Shown here piece by piece: positions 3,131 to 52,518 of a stretch of DNA of 64,000 nucleotides. Position 1 is the stretch's first letter; every line of letters begins with the position of its first letter. Under the pieces are notes generated by a model. The model was not told where the DNA came from and made no database searches. It saw only the letters and a program-made list of their open reading frames with translations. Source of the stretch: Sulfurospirillum arcachonense DSM 9755 (GTDB lineage Bacteria > Campylobacterota > Campylobacteria > Campylobacterales > Sulfurospirillaceae). The position numbers and the translations under genes were made by a program. Location: contig NZ_JFBL01000012.1 of the NCBI RefSeq assembly GCF_000597725.1, positions 1-64,000 of the forward strand. Direction: 5' to 3'.

Positions 3131-4207
3131 TTAATTTCTATCTAAACAGTTTAAATCAGAAAATGCACGTTTAAGTCTAGCTATAGTAGCTTCTTCACCT
3201 GCTCTTAACCATTTTCTAGGGTCATAATATTTTTTATTTGGTTTATCGTCACCCTCTGGATTTCCGATTTGACCTTGAAGATATGCATCATATTTTTCAA
3301 CATATTCTTTAGTACCTTCCCAAAATGACCACTGCGTATCTGTGTCAATATTCATTTTAATAACACCATACTCAATAGCTTCTCTAATATCAGCTAATTC
3401 ACTTCCACTTCCACCATGAAAAACAAAATTAACTGGTTTTTCTAAAGTTCCAAATTTTTCTTGAATATACTTTTGTGAGTTATCTAAAATCTTTGGAGTT
3501 AGATGAACATTTCCTGGTTTATATACACCATGTACATTTCCAAAAGAAGCCGCAATAGTAAAGTTAGGGCTAATTGCATTTAGTCTTTCATATGCATATG
3601 CAACATCTTCAGGTTGAGTATAAAGTGCTGAATTATCAAGATGAGTATTATCAACTCCATCTTCTTCACCACCAGTACAACCAAGTTCAATCTCTAAAGT
3701 CATACCAATTTTACTCATTCTTTTATGATACTCTACACACGTATTGATATTATCTTCTAAACTCTCTTCTGAAAGATCAATCATATGTGAGCTATAAAGA
3801 GGTTTACCAGTTTTTGCAAAATGGTCTTCACTCGCTTCTAAAAGAGCATCTATCCAAGGTAAAAGTTTTCTTGCTGCATGGTCTGTATGAAGGATTACAG
3901 GAACACCATAAGCTTCAGCTACGGTGTGTACATGTAAAGCTCCACTAATAGCTCCTAAAATACCTGATTTTATAGTATCTAATCCTTTACCTGCATAAAA
4001 TTGTGCTCCACCGTTTGAGAATTGCACAATAACAGGTGAATTTACATTTTTTGCAGATTCCATAACAGCATTTACCGAGCTAGTACTTACTACATTTACT
4101 GCAGGCAAAGCAAACTTATTTGCTTTGGCTACTTCAAAAACTTTTGTAACATCATTGCCACATAAAACACCAGGTTTTACAAAATCAAATATTTTAGAAC
4201 TTGTCAT
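3131..4207 (-). CDS. fba: Class II fructose-1,6-bisphosphate aldolase
   Basis: The enzyme reversibly cleaves fructose-1,6-bisphosphate to dihydroxyacetone phosphate and glyceraldehyde-3-phosphate, mainly for gluconeogenesis in this lineage. Its 358 residues match the long E. coli-type class IIA form. ILHTDHAARK carries the catalytic Asp and a zinc-binding His. Further zinc-site histidines are expected in ASFGNVHGVYKPGN and FVFHGGSGS. The C-terminal YDPRKWLRAGEE is typical. The ATG at 4207 follows AGAAGGT. The gene lies 10 bases after the peb4-like gene, an order I recall from C. jejuni (Cj0596-Cj0597). It could also receive DHAP from the GlpD pathway near 44-52 kb. Confidence 0.97.
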   Translation of the reverse strand: MTSSKIFDFVKPGVLCGNDVTKVFEVAKANKFALPAVNVVSTSSVNAVMESAKNVNSPVIVQFSNGGAQFYAGKGLDTIKSGILGAISGALHVHTVAEAYGVPVILHTDHAARKLLPWIDALLEASEDHFAKTGKPLYSSHMIDLSEESLEDNINTCVEYHKRMSKIGMTLEIELGCTGGEEDGVDNTHLDNSALYTQPEDVAYAYERLNAISPNFTIAASFGNVHGVYKPGNVHLTPKILDNSQKYIQEKFGTLEKPVNFVFHGGSGSELADIREAIEYGVIKMNIDTDTQWSFWEGTKEYVEKYDAYLQGQIGNPEGDDKPNKKYYDPRKWLRAGEEATIARLKRAFSDLNCLDRN

Positions 4208-6887: not shown

Positions 6888-7574
6888 TTACTTAGCTATT
6901 ATCCTATACCCTTCAGAAGAAACATTTTCTATCAAATCATCATTGAGTTTATCTCTAACTCTTCGTACTAAGCTTCTAAGCGTTGAAGTAGGAACATCAT
7001 CATTATCCCATAACTCTTTTATGATTTTATTATAATGAACAGCTTTATTTCTATTTGATACCATAAAAAAGAAAAACTCTCCCTCTTTTTTAGTTAAATT
7101 CACCTTTTCATTTAAATGATATAAATTTTTTTCTTTTAATGCATATTCATATTCACTGTTTAATTGTATTACTTCACCATTGTTACTGTTTTCTTCTTCT
7201 TCAAATCTTGATAAAGCTATAAGAATTGCACTATTTAACTGCTTTTCATCAACTGGTTTAACTACATAACCATACGGTTTGGTTGATTGAGCTTTTTTTA
7301 AAGTTTCATTATCGGTAAAAGAAGTTAAATATACTACTGGAATATTGAACTTTGTTTGTATTAAATCAACTATCGTTGTTCCATCAGCACTGTCATTCAA
7401 TTTAATATCCATCAAAACTAAATTTGGTAAATATTTTTCTATATAAAACATTGCTTCATCTGTCGTAGTAGCTACCTCATCAACAACATAACCAAAATCC
7501 ACAAGACAATGCTGTATATCCATAGCGATAATAGCTTCATCTTCTACTATAATTATATGTTTATTTTCACTCAT
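6888..7574 (-). CDS. Response regulator with CheY-like receiver and winged-helix output
   Basis: The receiver (about 5-120) has the acidic pair in IIIVEDEAIIAMDI, the phospho-acceptor Asp in LVLMDIKLNDSADG, a Ser/Thr switch in VVYLTSF and the Lys in YGYVVKPVD. This receiver type usually pairs with HisKA_2 kinases. The C-terminal domain (about 160-228, including LTKKEGEFFFFM and TLRSLVRRVRDKLND) looks like an OmpR/PhoB-type DNA-binding domain. I chose ATG 7574, which overlaps the upstream stop as ATGA. An alternative in-frame ATG at 7607 would add 11 unconserved-looking residues. The neighbouring convergent kinase is the likely partner. Confidence 0.88.
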   Translation of the reverse strand: MSENKHIIIVEDEAIIAMDIQHCLVDFGYVVDEVATTTDEAMFYIEKYLPNLVLMDIKLNDSADGTTIVDLIQTKFNIPVVYLTSFTDNETLKKAQSTKPYGYVVKPVDEKQLNSAILIALSRFEEEENSNNGEVIQLNSEYEYALKEKNLYHLNEKVNLTKKEGEFFFFMVSNRNKAVHYNKIIKELWDNDDVPTSTLRSLVRRVRDKLNDDLIENVSSEGYRIIAK

Positions 7575-44215: not shown

Positions 44216-46099
44216 CTATGATTTAAACTTACCGAGTTCATTATTTAGCTTTTCAGTCATTGAGTGTAAATGATCTGAAGCAGTTGAAACATTTTGAACA
44301 CTCTCTACATTACTTGCTGATATATTACTTACTTCGTTCACTTCATCAACCATAGATTGAACTTTTATAGATGTATCTGCAAAATCATCAACAGTTTTAC
44401 TTGCATCACTTATTGTTTGATGAATTACAGTTGAAATCTCTACCATTTGTTCTTGAAGTTTCACTGAATCATTTGCCAGTTCATGTACTTCATTGGCATT
44501 TTCTGAAATTTCTGTATTTGCTTCCATGATTGATTGTACTACAATATTGATAGTTGCATCAATTTCTACAAGACTTTTTTGAGTACGTTCCGCTAGTTTT
44601 CTTACTTCGTCAGCAACAACAGCAAATCCACGTCCATGCTCACCTGCACGAGCTGCTTCAATCGCAGCATTTAGTGCTAGTAAATTAGTTTGATCTGCAA
44701 TATCTTTGATTATATTTAAAACTTCTTTAACTTCATTTGCATTTTGACTTACTTGATTAAGTTTTTCTGCGAGCGCTTGTTCTTTTTGAGAAGTAGTTTG
44801 CATAGTATTTTCTAACTCTTCAACTTTTCCTTTTACCTCATTTACACTCGTATATGTTTTTTCAAGTTCTACTTGAGAAGATTTAGCTTTTTCTACAGAT
44901 GTATTAAGATAAGAGTTTAACTCTTCACCTTTTTCCCTTGTTTTTGAAACAATTAAAGACTCTTTTTCTACATTTTTTCCTACTTCTACAGCAGTACTAG
45001 ATAATTCTTCCGAAATAGCAGAATTTTCTCCACTAATCTCTTTAGAAGCTTGAACAATTCTTTGTAATTTTTCTATAAAAAGATTTATATTTGTTGAAAC
45101 TTCTCCAAACTCATCTTGATTTTTTATTTCTAATCTTTGTCTTAAATCCCCATCAGATGTTCCTAACTCTTTTGCAAGTTTATTTAAATTATCCAACGGC
45201 TTCATCATTACTTTTGTACCAAATATAACTATAATTAAAGCAATTACTAAAATAATTCCACCAAGCATAAAAAGCTTTGCTGTAAGAGAATTTAAAAAAG
45301 CATATGCTACTTTTTTATCAAAAGTAACTGCTATTGTCCATGGAGTCTCTTTTGATTTAAGATATACAAGTATTTTACCATCATCGTTATATACATATTC
45401 AATTAAACCAGAATCTGAACTTTTCATTTTCTCTTTTGATCCAGGTATAAGCTCATAAACTTCTTTTCCTAAAAATTCTTTGTTAGGATGTGCTATTAAA
45501 ACACCTTTCCCATCAAGTAAAAGTCCATATCCACCTTTAAAACTAACCTCTTTCACAGCTTTCATTAAATCATCTAATCCAAGATCAATCCCATATACAC
45601 CAATGAAAACATTGTCTTTATTAAATACAGGTGCTGCTATAGAAACTATATATTTTTTTGTAAATGAATCAACATATGCATCTGTAATATTTACTTTTTT
45701 ATTTGCTTTTGTTTCTTTATACCATGGACGAACACGAGGATCATACCCTTCAGGAAGCTTAGTTTCTGACGCAAGAAGCATTCTACCATCTTCTAAACCA
45801 ACATACCCTTCCATACCACCTGCAACTAGAAGATGTTTTATTAATTGATTGTGAACGTCATTTTCTACCATATCTGCTGAATTTTTCATCTCTTTTGCAC
45901 TGGTGAAGACTATATGTTTTTTTGATTTTATCCAAACATCTATATACTTCGTTAATCCTTTGGTTTGAGCATTTAAGTAAGCTTCAACTTGTAAAATACT
46001 TTTCGCTTTTACTTCTATATAACTAAACCCACCAAATATTCCTAATCCTAACAACATCATTACTGAAATTGCAAGGGCTACTTTAGTTTTGAAGCTCAT
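44216..46099 (-). CDS. Methyl-accepting chemotaxis protein, dCache sensor
   Basis: 627 residues. The first membrane helix is at about 7-25. The periplasmic dCache domain (about 35-275) has [36 protein letters not shown] and [12 protein letters not shown], similar to amino-acid-binding dCache_1 motifs. A second membrane helix (about 278-300) and a HAMP region follow. The cytoplasmic signalling tip is [19 protein letters not shown] with [13 protein letters not shown]. The ligand is uncertain. It has 98 bases upstream of its own, including a sigma-28-like site, and abuts ruvX. Confidence 0.94.
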
Positions 46100-46197: not shown

Positions 46198-47004
46198 TTA
46201 AAAATCCGTAAATATTGACTTTGCCCCATTATTCCATAGTTTTTCCATATCTTTTTTATCATTCACAGTAAAAATATTCACAAAAATACCTGCATTGCTA
46301 AGATTTTGTATCAAATCTGTATCTGCTATATTAAACTCTGGATGATAACTTCTCACCCTTAAACGCTTTAAACGCTTTACCAAATCTTTTGGATGTTCAT
46401 TCTCTTGTAGTGCAGCTATGTCTATATTGTTATTGAGTTTATGTACTTGTCTTAAGTATTTATGATTAAAAGATGAAAGTAGCACATAATTTACCATAAC
46501 ATTATCTTCAATAATATCTACAATTGTTTTTGCAGCCGTTTTATCAAATGGTGTTCTAACAGCATCTTTTATTTCTACATTTACAGGAAAATTATGTTTT
46601 CTAAGAAATCTTAATACTTCATCTAATGTTAAAATTCTTTGAGTTTTTAATGCTTTTAACTCTTCAATATCAACGGTACCATCTTTAATAGTTCCAAAAG
46701 GATCATCCCTTAAAAACCAAGAGCCAAAATCTAATTTTCTTAATTGTTTATAAGTATAATCAATAACCTTATAAGGTTTTTTAAACTCAGCAAAATCCTT
46801 CACATTTGAAGTTCTTTCTAATGTATTATCATGAATAATAACAGCAACACCATCTTTTGTAAATCCGACATCTAATTCTATAAAATCACTTTTTTTTATA
46901 GCTTCTTTAAAAGCAGACATTGTATTTTCAGGTCTTATAGCTCTAGCTCCTCTATGAGCAACTATAAGTTTTTTATCTTTTTTAAAATTTTCCCAAAATC
47001 CCAT
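46198..47004 (-). CDS. ugpQ: Cytoplasmic glycerophosphodiester phosphodiesterase
   Basis: The enzyme hydrolyses glycerophosphodiesters such as glycerophosphocholine to glycerol-3-phosphate and an alcohol. The 268-residue GDPD TIM barrel has LIVAHRGARAIRPENTMSAF (catalytic His and metal-site Glu), FIELDVGFTKDGVAVIIHDN (metal and second catalytic His), and VNVEIKDA. No signal peptide is present, so it is UgpQ-like rather than periplasmic GlpQ. It lies 10 bases after the importer gene potC, implying that the diester is taken up intact. GlpD of the same block would use the product. Confidence 0.92.
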   Translation of the reverse strand: MGFWENFKKDKKLIVAHRGARAIRPENTMSAFKEAIKKSDFIELDVGFTKDGVAVIIHDNTLERTSNVKDFAEFKKPYKVIDYTYKQLRKLDFGSWFLRDDPFGTIKDGTVDIEELKALKTQRILTLDEVLRFLRKHNFPVNVEIKDAVRTPFDKTAAKTIVDIIEDNVMVNYVLLSSFNHKYLRQVHKLNNNIDIAALQENEHPKDLVKRLKRLRVRSYHPEFNIADTDLIQNLSNAGIFVNIFTVNDKKDMEKLWNNGAKSIFTDF

Positions 47005-47014
47005 TATATTCTCT

Positions 47015-47869
47015 CTATTGTTCTTTTTTTGTAAATATTAAATTTATAATTGCCATTAAAGACGTAGAGACTATAAGTAAAAATGAAATTGCATTGATGA
47101 TTGGAGTACTACCATCTCTTACTTGTAAATATAAATTTATAGGTAACGTTGTATCTGAGCCTATTAAAAACAGTGTTGTATTAAAGTTTTCAAAACTCAT
47201 TAAAAAAGCGACTGCTCCGGCTCCAATAAGTGCTGGTTTTAAGTAAGGCAAAGTAATCAACCTTATAACTTCAAATCTTGTTGCACCCAAATTTAGAGCT
47301 GCTTCTTCTAATGATTTATCAAACTTTTTTAACCTAGCACTTACAACAAGTAATACAAATGTAGAGATAAAAGCAAACTGTCCAATGACAACTAACCAAA
47401 AACTTGGTCTAAAAAATTCCACATCTATACCAAAAGTATTCTCCATATATGTCCCTGCTGTATTTGTAGAGAGTAAAAGAGATATACCTAAAATAACACC
47501 AGGAATAACTAAAGGAGTCAATGCTAAAAAATAAAACCCTTGTTTAAATTTAAAATTTTCTTGTTCAAATAAAAATGCCCCCATTGTTCCTAGTGTTAAT
47601 GAAAAAATAGAAACAAAAAATGCCGTTTTTATACTTATCCAAATGCTTGTTAAATTTGAGCTATCATTAAATATCCCAACTCTATCATTCGTATTGGAAA
47701 AGAACCAATCCAAAGAGAATCCATTCCAAGGCAAAGTAGGAAACTCTGAATCATTAAAAGCTAACACACAAGTAACAACTAAAGGTGCAAATAAAAATGT
47801 ATAAAACAAAACCATATAAATTATAAAGGAGATATCATAACCTTTTGATTTAGGAAGTGATCTTATCAT
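47015..47869 (-). CDS. ABC importer permease, PotC type
   Basis: 284 residues with six membrane segments and the permease EAA loop EEAALNLGATRFEVIRLITL, which contacts the ATPase. The real start is ATG 47869 (MIRSLPKSKG), which overlaps the potB stop as ATGA; open codons upstream to 47974 lie within potB. It pairs with the PotB-type permease. By family this resembles polyamine or putrescine transport, but the gene neighbours suggest glycerophosphodiester import. Confidence 0.9.
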   Translation of the reverse strand: MIRSLPKSKGYDISFIIYMVLFYTFLFAPLVVTCVLAFNDSEFPTLPWNGFSLDWFFSNTNDRVGIFNDSSNLTSIWISIKTAFFVSIFSLTLGTMGAFLFEQENFKFKQGFYFLALTPLVIPGVILGISLLLSTNTAGTYMENTFGIDVEFFRPSFWLVVIGQFAFISTFVLLVVSARLKKFDKSLEEAALNLGATRFEVIRLITLPYLKPALIGAGAVAFLMSFENFNTTLFLIGSDTTLPINLYLQVRDGSTPIINAISFLLIVSTSLMAIINLIFTKKEQ

Positions 47870-48723
47870 GATAACGCCTTTGCAAGATTTTGTTTTGTGA
47901 GTTTTAAACCAATCCAAATTATCAATGAAGATAAAAGAAGAAGTAAAAATCCAAATGCAGCACCTTGGTTCCAATTAAAACTTGCTATAAATTGATTATA
48001 AATTTGTTCTGTAAACCAAAGTGAATTTTTCCCACCCATAAGATTTGGTGTAAGATAATTTCCAAGTGTTAACATAAAAACAACGATAGAACCAGAAACT
48101 ATGCCAGGAGCCGTATAAGGAATCACTATTTTAAAAAATATAATAAATTTTGAAGCACCCAAATCATGGGCAGCTTCTATATAACTATCATCCATACCAT
48201 CAAGTGAAGATATAAGAGGAACTACCATAAAAAGCATAGAAGTATAAACCAATCCCATTATCATACTCACATCATTATAAAGCATCTCTATTGGCTTATC
48301 TAGTATATGTAAGCTTACTAAAAAATAATTGATTACACCACTTTCACGAAGAAGTATCATCCATCCATATACACGCACAAGTTCACTCACCCAAAAAGGC
48401 ATTAAAAGTAAAATAATGAGAAAACCTTTATATTTTGGTGACACTACTTTTGTAATATAAAAAGCGATAGGAAAAGTAACTACAAAAGTCAAGAATGTAA
48501 CTAAAATAGCATACAAAGCAACACGTAAAAAAGTAAGCCAATATATCTCTTCAGAAAAAAATTCTTTATAATTTTGTAAAGACCAAACCATCTCACCCAT
48601 ATCATTTTCATACTTTAAAGACATAAATAAAAGTTCTATATGAGGTAAAACTATAAGCAAAAATAACCACAAAAATACAGGAATAAAAAAGATATAAAAT
48701 CCGAATTTAGTATGTTTATTCAT
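47866..48723 (-). CDS. ABC importer permease, PotB type
   Basis: 285 residues with six membrane segments. The N-terminal helix is FYIFFIPVFLWLFLLIVLP, and the EAA loop is IEAAHDLGASKFIIFFKIVI. I chose ATG 48723, overlapping the ATPase stop by 8 bases; a GTG at 48738 is in frame but less likely. It forms the heterodimeric channel with the PotC-type protein. Confidence 0.9.
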   Translation of the reverse strand: MNKHTKFGFYIFFIPVFLWLFLLIVLPHIELLFMSLKYENDMGEMVWSLQNYKEFFSEEIYWLTFLRVALYAILVTFLTFVVTFPIAFYITKVVSPKYKGFLIILLLMPFWVSELVRVYGWMILLRESGVINYFLVSLHILDKPIEMLYNDVSMIMGLVYTSMLFMVVPLISSLDGMDDSYIEAAHDLGASKFIIFFKIVIPYTAPGIVSGSIVVFMLTLGNYLTPNLMGGKNSLWFTEQIYNQFIASFNWNQGAAFGFLLLLLSSLIIWIGLKLTKQNLAKALS

Positions 48724-49783
48724 AGCACTTACAATCACTTACATGTACACCAGCTCTGACTACTTCACCCTCTTTTATATGTGCAAACCTTCTATTTTGA
48801 GGTAAAGAAACCATTATTTCATGATCACTTTTATCTACATTAGCTAATACTTTCGTATTGGACCCATCAAACAAAATAGTTTTTATAGTCAAATCAAAAT
48901 AATTCATATCTTCCATACCATCATCTACCAATAAAACAACAGCTTCAGGTCTGATAAAAAGTTTACAAAAAGTTTGTATTTTTTCATCTACTAAAAAAAC
49001 TTTAAAATTCATACCCTCTTTTGTTAATACTGATTTTCTATCTTCATTAAGACGTGCCTCAAATATATTTGTTTCTCCAACAAAACTTGCTACAAAACTA
49101 GTTTTTGGGTTTGCATATAAATTTTCAGGAGTGTCAATTTGTTCAAACTTTCCATTATTCATTACTGCTACTTTATCACTCATAACAAGAGCTTCACTTT
49201 GATCATGCGTGATATATATAAAAGTTGTACCAAACTCATGTTGCAATTTTTTAAGCTCTATCTTCATCTGTTCACGAAGTTTTAAATCAAGTGCTCCAAG
49301 AGGCTCATCTAAAAGTAATATTGAAGGTTCAAGTACAAGTGAGCGTGCAATCGCTACTCTTTGTTTTTGTCCACCAGATAAGTCAGAAACATTTTTGCGC
49401 TCATACCCACCTAAATGAACTTTTTCCAATATATTTTTTACTTTTTCTTCTATTTCACTTTTGCTACAATTTTGTCTTTTAAGTCCAAATGCAATATTTT
49501 CACCCACATCCATCATAGGAAAAAGCGCAAGATTTTGAAAAACAAGATTCACAGGTCTTTTGTTGGGAGATATACCTATCATCTCATCTCCACGTATTTT
49601 AATTGACCCAGAAGTTGGTTCTAAAAATCCAGCTATCATTCTTAAAAGTGTTGTTTTACCACATCCAGAAGGTCCTAATATAGAGAAAAACTTTCCCTCT
49701 TCAACATAAAAATCAACTCCATCTACCGCTTTAAAGTCTTGAAAACTTTTTTTTAACTCTTTAATCTCTAAACTATGATTCAT
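48716..49783 (-). CDS. ABC importer ATPase, PotA type
   Basis: 355 residues. Walker A is LGPSGCGKTTLLRMIAGF, the signature is LSGGQKQRVAIARSL, Walker B is LLLDEPLGALD, and the switch His is in ITHDQSEAL. The C-terminal TOBE-like regulatory domain (from about 245) is typical of PotA/MalK-type importers. AAGGGATAAG precedes the ATG. A strong hairpin in the gap from the receptor gene probably lowers its expression relative to the receptor. Confidence 0.93.
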   Translation of the reverse strand: MNHSLEIKELKKSFQDFKAVDGVDFYVEEGKFFSILGPSGCGKTTLLRMIAGFLEPTSGSIKIRGDEMIGISPNKRPVNLVFQNLALFPMMDVGENIAFGLKRQNCSKSEIEEKVKNILEKVHLGGYERKNVSDLSGGQKQRVAIARSLVLEPSILLLDEPLGALDLKLREQMKIELKKLQHEFGTTFIYITHDQSEALVMSDKVAVMNNGKFEQIDTPENLYANPKTSFVASFVGETNIFEARLNEDRKSVLTKEGMNFKVFLVDEKIQTFCKLFIRPEAVVLLVDDGMEDMNYFDLTIKTILFDGSNTKVLANVDKSDHEIMVSLPQNRRFAHIKEGEVVRAGVHVSDCKCYE

Positions 49784-49793
49784 CTTATCCCTT

Positions 49794-49818
49794 GAAAAAG
49801 GAGGGAAAACCCCTCCTT
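49794..49818 (-). terminator. Intrinsic attenuator between receptor and ATPase genes
   Basis: On the minus strand AAGGAGGG-GTTTT-CCCTCCTT is a perfect 8-bp stem followed by TTT and a C. It lies 9 bases after the receptor gene's stop and just before the ATPase ribosome site. It would let most transcripts end after the receptor, a common way to make excess binding protein. Confidence 0.8.
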
Positions 49819-49826
49819 AATATATT

Positions 49827-50888
49827 TTATTTTGCAGATTTAATTTTATCTAAAATCTTGCCTTCTATCTTTTCTAACACTGCTGGTACTGGTGGATACC
49901 ATTTTATATTGTCAATATCAGCTTTAGAAAAACTTCTTTGAAAATTAGCTTTTTTCTCAGCATCTAAAAGTGCTGTTGCTCCCTTTGAAGCAGTACCATA
50001 CGCTTGGTCATTTGTAAAATATGCTGCATTTTCAGGTTTTAGCATAAAGTTAATCCACTTATATGCACCTGCAACATTTTTAGCTTTTGCAGGAATTGCA
50101 AAAGTATCAATCCAACCTAATGCCCCACTTTTTGGTGCAACAAAGTCTAAATCAGGATTTTCTTTGTGGAGTTTCCAACCACCATTATCCCAACCCATAG
50201 CAACTGTTACTTCACCACTTCTTAACATACTTAAAAGTGCATCACCATTTGCATAATAATTTTTAGCTAAAGGTTTTGCTTTAATCAAATCAGCTTGAAC
50301 AGAATCCATAAGTGCTTTATATGCTTTTGTATCACCATATTTTGCAAATGGGTCATCACCTTTAGCAAAAGCAACACCTATAAGAGTAGGACGCTTCAAT
50401 CTATAAGAGATTTTTCCTTTATACTCAGGATTTAGTAAGTCACTATAATCTTTTGCATTTGGCGCTAATTTTTTATTTACAATCAAGCCTGAAGTTCCAT
50501 AACAAAAAGGAACACCAAATGAATCTTCCCCTACTTTTGTGTTTTTCTTCACAGCATCTAACATTGATGTAATAATTTGTTTAGAGTCAATTTTAGAATA
50601 ATCAAGTGCTTTATATATTTTATATTTTGCTTGAACTGAACTTATTCTATCTTGTGAAGGTTGTGCTACATCAAATCCAGCACCTCTTGTTGCACGAAGT
50701 TTTGATATCATCTCTTCATTATTTGAGTAAGTAAGCTCTACTTTAATACCTGTTTGCTTTTCAAACTTTTCCACTAATGCCTTTGGAGCATAACCTTTCC
50801 ATGTTAATATCTTCAAAGTATCTGCGTTTAAAACACTTCCAGATAATAATGCAACTGCTGCAACTGATGTGATAGCCAATTTCTTCAT
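49827..50888 (-). CDS. PotD-like periplasmic substrate-binding protein
   Basis: 353 residues with signal peptide MKKLAITSVAAVALLSGSVLNA cleaved near 22. It has the PotD/F fold landmarks ILTWKGYAPKALVEKFEKQT and GWIDTFAIPAKAKN. Aligned from memory with E. coli PotD, aromatic ligands W30, W233 and W259 and D261 are kept. The acidic amine ligands corresponding to E36, D168 and E171 appear replaced by G32 and by RLKRPTLIG (163-171). This argues against a polyamine and for an anionic ligand such as a glycerophosphodiester. It lies 55 bases after glpD with GGAG upstream. Confidence 0.9.
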   Translation of the reverse strand: MKKLAITSVAAVALLSGSVLNADTLKILTWKGYAPKALVEKFEKQTGIKVELTYSNNEEMISKLRATRGAGFDVAQPSQDRISSVQAKYKIYKALDYSKIDSKQIITSMLDAVKKNTKVGEDSFGVPFCYGTSGLIVNKKLAPNAKDYSDLLNPEYKGKISYRLKRPTLIGVAFAKGDDPFAKYGDTKAYKALMDSVQADLIKAKPLAKNYYANGDALLSMLRSGEVTVAMGWDNGGWKLHKENPDLDFVAPKSGALGWIDTFAIPAKAKNVAGAYKWINFMLKPENAAYFTNDQAYGTASKGATALLDAEKKANFQRSFSKADIDNIKWYPPVPAVLEKIEGKILDKIKSAK

Positions 50889-50943: not shown

Positions 50944-52518
50944 TTACAAATTTTTATCTAAAATATTTTTTGCTTCTTTTACATGTAAAGTATATTCTTC
51001 TTCATTCCAACTAAATTTATCTTTGAATATCTCTGTAGTACTTTCTAAACACTCTTTAGCACCTTTTTTATCAATGAAGCCCAATCCTATACGCCTTACT
51101 AAAAAATCCAAAGGTTTACATGTAAACTCATGATCAATACTATAATACACTTCTGCTTCAACATAAGGATACTCTTCATGAAGTTTCTTGGTTCCAAACT
51201 TTTCTATATATTTTACGACGTCTAAAGAACAATCTCCATAAGAAGAAATCAAATGTTTAACTAATTTATTATTATAATTTAATCCATTTAATTTTTCTTG
51301 AATATTTATAATATTTTTATTATTTCCAACAAGTTTATACTCTTTTGTACCACAATCTTGAAGGTTTCTTTTATCTTTAAATGAAAAATCAAGTATCTCT
51401 TCTGCCATTTTTCTGTAAGTCGTCCATTTACCACCTACAATACTAATAAGCCCAGATTCTGCTTTACTTATAACATGTTCTCTTACTAACTCTTTTGTAC
51501 TTTGCACATTTTCATTAATAACAAGAGGACGAAGACCAGACCAAGAAGATAAAATATCACTCTTAGAAACTTTGACATCAAAATATTTATCTATATGTCT
51601 TAATAAATACTCAATATCATCGTTGCTTACACAAGGATGTTCTTCTACTTTTGATTCTTCATCTGTAGTTCCTACAAGGCATTTTCCAAGATAAGGTAGC
51701 ATAAAAAGAACTCTACCATCTTCTGTCTTAGGAATCATTATACCTTCATTATTAGGTAAAAACTTTTTATCTAAAACAATATGTATACCTGAACTCACTT
51801 TTAGCATCTCTTTACTATTTTTATCATCAAGTTTTCTTACTTGATCACTAAATACTCCTGTTGCATTAATTATACAGTCTGATGTTAGCTCATACTCTAT
51901 GTTTTTCAATTTATCAAAAAGCCTTACACCCCTTAGTTTTGTATCTTCATATAAAAAATCTATAACTTCTGTGTAGTTTTTAACTTCACAACCTTTCTCT
52001 TTTGCACTTTGTAGCAATGATATTATCATTTTAGCGTCATTAAAAGCACCATCATAATACCTCACACCACCTTTGAGATTTTTCTTTTTTACAGCTGGAA
52101 AAATATCCATAATCTCTTTTTTACCTACTATTTTACTTGTGCCAAGTCTTCTATTTCCTGATATTAAATCATAAAGAACAAGACCAATATACATGTAAGG
52201 AATTTCATACCATTTGTAGAGTGGAGTTACTAAAGTAATAGGAGAAGCTAAATGAGAAGCATTTTTCAAAAGTCTGTAACGCTCTTTAAGAGCTTCTTTA
52301 ACTAAATTATATTGAGAAGAATCAAGTTTTTTAACAGCACCTTCAAGATATCTTACGCCACCATGAACAAGTTTTGTACTTCTACTACTTGTTCCTTCCC
52401 CAAAATCATTTTTTTCAACTATTAAGGTTTTTAAACCCCTTAATGTTGCATCAAGTGCAATGCCACTACCTGTAGCACCGCCTCCAATTATAATCAAATC
52501 AAAGTGTGTCTGTTCCAA
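50944..52518 (-). CDS. glpD: FAD-dependent glycerol-3-phosphate dehydrogenase
   Basis: GlpD oxidises glycerol-3-phosphate to dihydroxyacetone phosphate and passes electrons to quinone at the inner membrane. The 524-residue protein has the FAD site LIIIGGGATGSGIALDATLR and TSSRSTKLVHGGVRYLEGA. Further motifs are KGGVRYYDGAFNDAKMI and IVGGKWTTYRKMAEE. The start is TTG at 52518 with AAAGGAAAG upstream, after a likely -10 (TATACT). It heads the block potD-potA-potB-potC-ugpQ and contains three TACATGTA sites. Confidence 0.94.
   Translation of the reverse strand: MEQTHFDLIIIGGGATGSGIALDATLRGLKTLIVEKNDFGEGTSSRSTKLVHGGVRYLEGAVKKLDSSQYNLVKEALKERYRLLKNASHLASPITLVTPLYKWYEIPYMYIGLVLYDLISGNRRLGTSKIVGKKEIMDIFPAVKKKNLKGGVRYYDGAFNDAKMIISLLQSAKEKGCEVKNYTEVIDFLYEDTKLRGVRLFDKLKNIEYELTSDCIINATGVFSDQVRKLDDKNSKEMLKVSSGIHIVLDKKFLPNNEGIMIPKTEDGRVLFMLPYLGKCLVGTTDEESKVEEHPCVSNDDIEYLLRHIDKYFDVKVSKSDILSSWSGLRPLVINENVQSTKELVREHVISKAESGLISIVGGKWTTYRKMAEEILDFSFKDKRNLQDCGTKEYKLVGNNKNIINIQEKLNGLNYNNKLVKHLISSYGDCSLDVVKYIEKFGTKKLHEEYPYVEAEVYYSIDHEFTCKPLDFLVRRIGLGFIDKKGAKECLESTTEIFKDKFSWNEEEYTLHVKEAKNILDKNL

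Follow-up and report, generated by a model that had tools for sequence, protein, structure and literature searches.

The solute-binding protein encoded at positions 49827–50888 on the minus strand of the window (the whole 64,000-nucleotide stretch analysed here, from Sulfurospirillum arcachonense DSM 9755) is probably the receptor component of an ABC importer of intact glycerophosphodiesters; the likeliest ligands carry an amine head group and would be glycerophosphoethanolamine or glycerophosphocholine. We infer the ligand, its orientation in the binding pocket, and the transport itself from the observed sequence, clade, operon, and gene co-occurrence. The importer is best read as having arisen from a polyamine receptor.

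Organization of the operon

The genes of the putative operon, all on the minus strand, follow one another in the order GlpD-like dehydrogenase, receptor, PotA-like ATPase, PotB-like permease, PotC-like permease, and glycerophosphodiester phosphodiesterase (GDPD). The first gene (50944–52518), with a TTG start, encodes a FAD-dependent glycerol-3-phosphate (G3P) dehydrogenase of the GlpD type (NCBIfam PRK12266, 302 bits with a cut-off of 360; Pfam DAO and DAO_C). The PotA/UgpC-like ATP-binding subunit is encoded at 48716–49783 (TIGR01187, 346 bits with a cut-off of 355.6) and is followed by the PotB-like permease at 47866–48738, recognized by its NCBIfam and Pfam profile matches, and by the PotC/PotI-like permease at 47015–47869, whose likely ATG start at 47869 overlaps the stop of the preceding gene; the mechanically listed open reading frame has its start farther upstream. 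The last gene (46198–47004) encodes a UgpQ-like GDPD, the only one found in the genome (PF03009). Its N-terminus, MGFWENFKKDKKLIVAHRGA, contains no signal peptide; therefore, an external substrate must be imported intact. An ABC importer is thus encoded together with a cytoplasmic glycerophosphodiesterase and a G3P dehydrogenase. Between the receptor and ATPase genes a G+C-rich hairpin, AAGGAGGGGTTTTCCCTCCTT, followed by a T run, is present at 49794–49818 (minus strand). It resembles attenuators located after other binding-protein genes and is possibly an attenuator favouring receptor expression; hairpins of this kind are no more numerous in the region than in shuffled sequences.

The gene of a methyl-accepting chemotaxis protein (MCP), located at 44216–46099 on the minus strand, belongs to the same cassette. 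In relatives lacking the operon (L144, L139, and L125) dprA and ruvX are adjacent, and in the window and in genome G223 (L160) the operon and the MCP gene lie between them, an arrangement suggestive of a cassette that was acquired or lost at a single site. The MCP of G223, encoded at 3483–5360 of L160, at the other end of the cassette, is 67% identical to that of the window. By this association, the MCP may be a chemoreceptor for the imported nutrient or for one related to it.

The receptor and its binding pocket

The open reading frame described in the first-pass annotation is real, and its residues and their numbering were given correctly (minus strand, 353 amino acids). The protein has a signal-peptide-like start at its N-terminus and belongs to the Pfam family SBP_bac_8. 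Its top NCBIfam profiles are PotD (116 bits, cut-off 582) and PotF (101.8 bits, cut-off 636), both far short of the equivalog cut-off for a polyamine receptor. The nearest solved structures by sequence are those of Lmo0810, Vibrio PotD1, and E. coli PotD, and the match to 1pot (phmmer E 2e-30) indicates homology and a PotD-type fold. Structure prediction, proposed as a check in that annotation, bore out this fold: the AlphaFold2 model, built on an alignment of 40 relatives, has a mean pLDDT of 92 and a VIA-align Z of 29 against PotD, and polyamine receptors are its top matches by both Foldseek (E 4.5e-26) and VIA-align, including SpuD with Z 33.5 and 2.2 Å over 317 residues. UgpB is absent from the 32 sequence hits in solved structures, and Mycobacterium tuberculosis UgpB (4mfi), with a VIA-align Z of 26, is placed behind the polyamine receptors. 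UgpB and GpxB were set aside as the family of the receptor, since polyamine receptors match it best in both sequence and structure; a protein missing from the list of hits may nevertheless be kin.

The pocket and signature residues of the protein are W30, K31, G32, Y33, S78, D80, R81, R163, K165, R166, T168, W233, W259, D261, Y297, W330, and Y331. In the alignment with PotD (the PotD and PotF reference sequences were taken from the E. coli MG1655 record) seven of them are kept, W30 (W34 in PotD), Y33 (Y37), S78 (S83), W233 (W229), W259 (W255), D261 (D257), and Y297 (Y293), and six are changed, K31 (T35), G32 (E36), D80 (Y85), K165 (D168), T168 (E171), and Y331 (Q327). The aromatic box of the polyamine receptors (W34, W229, W255 or F276) is therefore present as W30, W233, and W259. 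Of the amine-binding acids of PotD, E36, D168, E171, and D257, three are lost (G32, K165, and T168) and D261 alone is kept, D80 being a new acid with R81 directly beside it. The retention of the box with one Asp and the replacement of the Glu near the first Trp by Gly had been noticed earlier and are confirmed by this alignment. Being below the equivalog cut-off and devoid of three of the four acids, the receptor should not be filed as PotD, despite its fold and aromatic box.

In PotF the pocket was divided into a proximal group, S38/D39/D247, the aromatic box W37/W244/F276, and a distal group, S85/S87/A182/E185/D278/L348, and putrescine was no longer bound when either the proximal or the distal group was altered; the distal pocket of PotD comprises S83, Y85, D168, E171, and Q327 (PMC8666671). 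Read against this grouping, the proximal amine site of the receptor is without its acid, as G32 replaces E36, and at the distal site two acids are gone, one (D261) remains, and one acid (D80) and one lysine are new. The sequence and alignment place the clade-defining motif Y-R-L-K-R-P (residues 162–167, codons at 50388–50405, minus strand) where PotD has L-T-D-D-A-R (165–170). According to the first-pass annotation, the D168/E171 segment had turned basic and Arg/Lys stood in place of the amine-binding acids. This is accurate for D168, which became K165; E171 became Thr (T168), and of the basic residues only K165, together with K31, replaces a published pocket residue. The PotD counterparts of R163 and R166 are T166 and A169, neither of which is listed among the PotD/PotF pocket residues. 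D80 and the adjacent R81 had been overlooked. Acids from elsewhere occupying the same sites, which that annotation named as evidence against its own reading, were found in part, as D80 aligns with Y85 of the distal pocket group of PotD (PMC8666671). In the model a helix (166–175) begins directly after K165, and the helix end with K165 could be the place where a phosphate is held.

Conservation and phylogeny of the receptor clade

The relatives were drawn from one genome-collection scan (80 loci, 63–86% identity), from the order of the organism, and from plasmids. The 101 receptor relatives cover Campylobacterota, Desulfobacterota, and Gamma-, Beta-, and Alphaproteobacteria. Plasmid-borne relatives are 52–58% identical to the receptor in Roseobacters and 45% in Shinella and Paraburkholderia, followed by a gap down to about 31%. 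Among the 101 relatives D80, R81, R163, and R166 are identical in all 100 readable rows. Position 165 is occupied by K in 98 sequences and by R in two, and G32 is found in 94 of 100. W233, W259, and D261 are kept in all 101 and W30 in essentially all of them; K31 and Y297 are not universal. Conserved to this extent, the residue pattern of the receptor is not a matter of chance. In a quick maximum-likelihood tree, in which the places of the long outgroup branches are unsure, the relatives group together in a single clade (SH-aLRT 99, branch 0.99), separate from PotD, PotF, Lmo0810, and several PotD-like proteins lacking the motif.

Four loci (L023, L151, L152, and L153) encode members of another PotD-like clade, which differs from both PotD and the receptor clade: its motif segment reads V-R and S-A/S, and W-M-D/E occurs further on. 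At L021 (genome G015), in the match to the receptor at 1489–2529, the frame is open except for a TGA in place of the W30 codon, and there is no ATG at the aligned start; the TGA may reflect either a recent nonsense mutation or an error in the sequence.

Gene context and co-occurrence

Among 20 Campylobacterota genomes, chosen for the presence or absence of the receptor and scored for GDPD as PF03009, GDPD was found in 11 of the 12 receptor-bearing genomes and in none of the eight lacking the receptor (hypergeometric probability of about 7e-5, kinship ignored). Gene contexts were counted at the 46 of the 80 loci that have full flanks. A phosphodiesterase, either GDPD or GpdQ-like, is located near the receptor gene at 25 of them, and any G3P-related gene at 27; the remaining 19, mainly from Desulfobacterota, have neither a G3P nor a phosphodiesterase gene within the scanned flanks. 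No phosphodiesterase was detected among ten neighbours scanned with Pfam, most of which come from loci without Glp genes. In one set of loci GDPD is encoded downstream of the receptor and in another upstream, the latter being about 31% identical to the GDPD of the window; at eight loci, mostly of Desulfobacterota, GDPD and an amidotransferase directly precede the receptor gene. At six of the 80 loci a GpdQ-like metallophosphoesterase is encoded near the receptor; it has a match (2e-39) to 2dxl, the phosphohydrolase structure of GpdQ. The phosphodiesterase accompanying the receptor is thus not one inherited gene, its kinds and positions being different. Other relatives are located near genes of GlpK, GlpR, or a GlpA/GlpO-like oxidase, with GlpK and GlpR adjoining L065. 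Two Sulfitobacter plasmids carry the receptor operon directly after ugpBAEC, another tie to phosphoglycerol compounds; the contexts in Shinella, Ruegeria TM1040, and Tritonibacter are uninformative. It is also worth mentioning that at L101 (1265–10542) GDPD, an amidotransferase, a GlpA/GlpO-like oxidase, a FAD partner, the receptor operon, and a GpdQ-like enzyme are encoded in one run.

Some contexts concern the head group. At L048 and L049 genes running divergently from the operon encode a ligase resembling glutamine synthetase, an aldehyde dehydrogenase, an iron alcohol dehydrogenase, and a glutamine amidotransferase of class I. Enzymes of these kinds make up the gamma-glutamyl ethanolamine pathway. 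In the Marinovum algicola plasmid pMaD4 a complete cluster of a regulator, amidohydrolase, TRAP transporter, glutamine-synthetase-like gene, aldehyde dehydrogenase, and iron alcohol dehydrogenase lies directly ahead of the receptor operon, the same set in the same order as in the ethanolamine operon of Phaeobacter MED193 (PMC10132767). Between L048 and Marinovum the glutamine-synthetase-like proteins are 27%, the aldehyde dehydrogenases 42%, and the iron alcohol dehydrogenases 44% identical; the amidohydrolases are unrelated. In the genome of the window only a weak match to the gamma-glutamyl amine ligase was found (33% over part of its length), and for this reason we do not attribute the gamma-glutamyl route to the organism. 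No match to CutC was found in this genome. EutB is encoded there, with EutC-like and ethanolamine-permease-like open reading frames adjacent, the latter two named from reading the sequences. This ethanolamine cluster (EutB, EutC-like, and APC-type permease; L158, 2381–6102, contig C9 of G000) is located elsewhere in the genome, and a second MCP gene is found near it, at 7557–9695 of L158. The head-group evidence leans towards glycerophosphoethanolamine, with glycerophosphocholine or a broad specificity as further candidates.

Proposed function and alternative explanations

Glycerophosphodiesters freed from phospholipids would be the source of the substrate. The cationic amine would be held, as in PotD, by the retained aromatic box and D261, perhaps with the help of D80, and the phosphate end would be carried by K165 with K31, possibly also by R81, R163, or R166, where the acids were lost. 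The intact diester would then enter via the PotABC-like transporter and be cleaved by the cytoplasmic GDPD to G3P and an alcohol; GlpD would convert G3P to DHAP for central metabolism, and the amino alcohol would be used where the genome permits; the window's genome has EutB with EutC-like and ethanolamine-permease-like genes. Several observations count against this assignment: a cation could still be accommodated by the acids D80 and D261, K31 and Y297 vary among the relatives, 19 of the 46 full-flank loci lack G3P and phosphodiesterase genes in the scanned flanks, and the Shinella, Ruegeria TM1040, and Tritonibacter contexts are uninformative. The phosphate-bearing, perhaps choline-like ligand suggested in the first-pass annotation can be upheld only in part: the GDPD and G3P dehydrogenase of the operon, a context repeated in relatives with non-homologous phosphodiesterases, speak for it, but D80 had been left out, K165 (with K31) is the sole basic replacement of a published pocket residue, and some relatives indicate ethanolamine in place of choline.

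Of the other explanations, import of G3P or glycerol-1-phosphate only, with GDPD serving internal lipid turnover, is unlikely, although slightly less so than the other two discussed here. The G3P dehydrogenase within the operon, the GlpK and GlpR genes adjoining L065, and ugpBAEC preceding the Sulfitobacter relatives would all be in keeping with it; however, the only GDPD of the genome is in the operon and GDPD is absent from the receptor-less relatives, which ties the diester to the importer, the amine-suited aromatic box and D261 are kept throughout the 101 relatives, and ethanolamine genes accompany some of them. Phosphoethanolamine, phosphocholine, or another small zwitterionic amine-phosphate, rather than a glycerol diester, would present an identical charge pattern, and the ethanolamine pathway genes adjoining the receptor in Marinovum and at L048/L049 would suit such a ligand, yet GDPD and G3P dehydrogenase would have no role on a glycerol-free monoester, and this reading is considered improbable.

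It is equally improbable that the protein is a polyamine receptor of the usual kind whose distal site has been rearranged, with GDPD/GlpD surroundings that are coincidental or secondary. PotD and PotF are its best profile matches, polyamine receptors are its nearest solved structures, and the distal pocket contains the acids D80 and D261; on the other hand, the scores (116 of 582 bits for PotD and 102 of 636 for PotF) are far under the curated cut-offs, E36, D168, and E171 are lost with K/R at position 165 fixed across phyla, a change in the proximal or distal group sufficed to abolish putrescine binding by PotF (PMC8666671), and the GDPD/GpdQ/Glp context recurs. Import of the intact glycerophosphodiester is the preferred explanation.

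Comparison with known systems

UgpQ is a cytoplasmic GDPD acting alongside the Ugp importer. UgpB-UgpAEC with UgpQ, an importer of G3P and glycerophosphodiesters, therefore resembles the operon of the window in combining phosphoglycerol import with a cytoplasmic GDPD. E. coli PotD (1POT) and PotF, with PotABC and PotGHI, share with the receptor system the fold (VIA-align Z 29–32, about 27% identity), an ATPase with two permeases, the aromatic box (W34/W229/W255), D257, and Y293, and differ in the six substitutions given above (E36 to G, D168 to K, E171 to T, T35 to K, Y85 to D, and Q327 to Y), in belonging to a separate clade, and in the operon, which contains GDPD and GlpD instead of polyamine genes. 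UgpB differs in belonging to the CUT1 (D-I) family, with another phosphate site, and GpxB, a G1P/G3P receptor of the PhnT family, is likewise a separate family independently recruited to phosphoglycerol ligands, but is of the PhnD type and binds phosphate through Gly, Thr, Tyr, Ser, Asn, and His, not through a Lys/Arg motif; the G3P/G1P receptors described there are credited to these two families (PMC12718374). No PotD-type receptor for glycerophosphodiesters or glycerophosphoethanolamine was found in the open-access literature, to which the search was confined.

There is about an even chance that the clade represents a third independent route to phosphoglycerol recognition, in which a polyamine-receptor clade of marine and sulfidic bacteria, annotated as a spermidine/putrescine transporter, became a dedicated receptor for glycerophosphoethanolamine or glycerophosphocholine, with a zwitterion pocket composed of the aromatic box and Asp for the amine and Lys/Arg for the phosphate. 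If so, the polyamine receptor family would join CUT1 and PhnT, the two families in which phosphoglycerol receptors are reported to have evolved, and a gene family whose name denotes import of polyamines in numerous genomes of Campylobacterota, Desulfobacterota, and Roseobacter would instead recycle phospholipid debris, changing the use of carbon, nitrogen, and phosphorus inferred from those genomes.

The ethanolamine gamma-glutamylation (Eto) operon of Phaeobacter MED193 is of the same gene-set kind as the cluster directly preceding the receptor operon in pMaD4, but the receptor of that operon, EtoX, is of the TRAP type and serves free ethanolamine (PMC10132767). In the same strain a PotA/PotD pair (MED193_11419/11424), with GlpR (MED193_11439) nearby by locus number, is induced by phosphate stress (Table 1 of PMC10132767); MED193_11424 may be a member of the receptor clade, and its induction may be an experimental hint.
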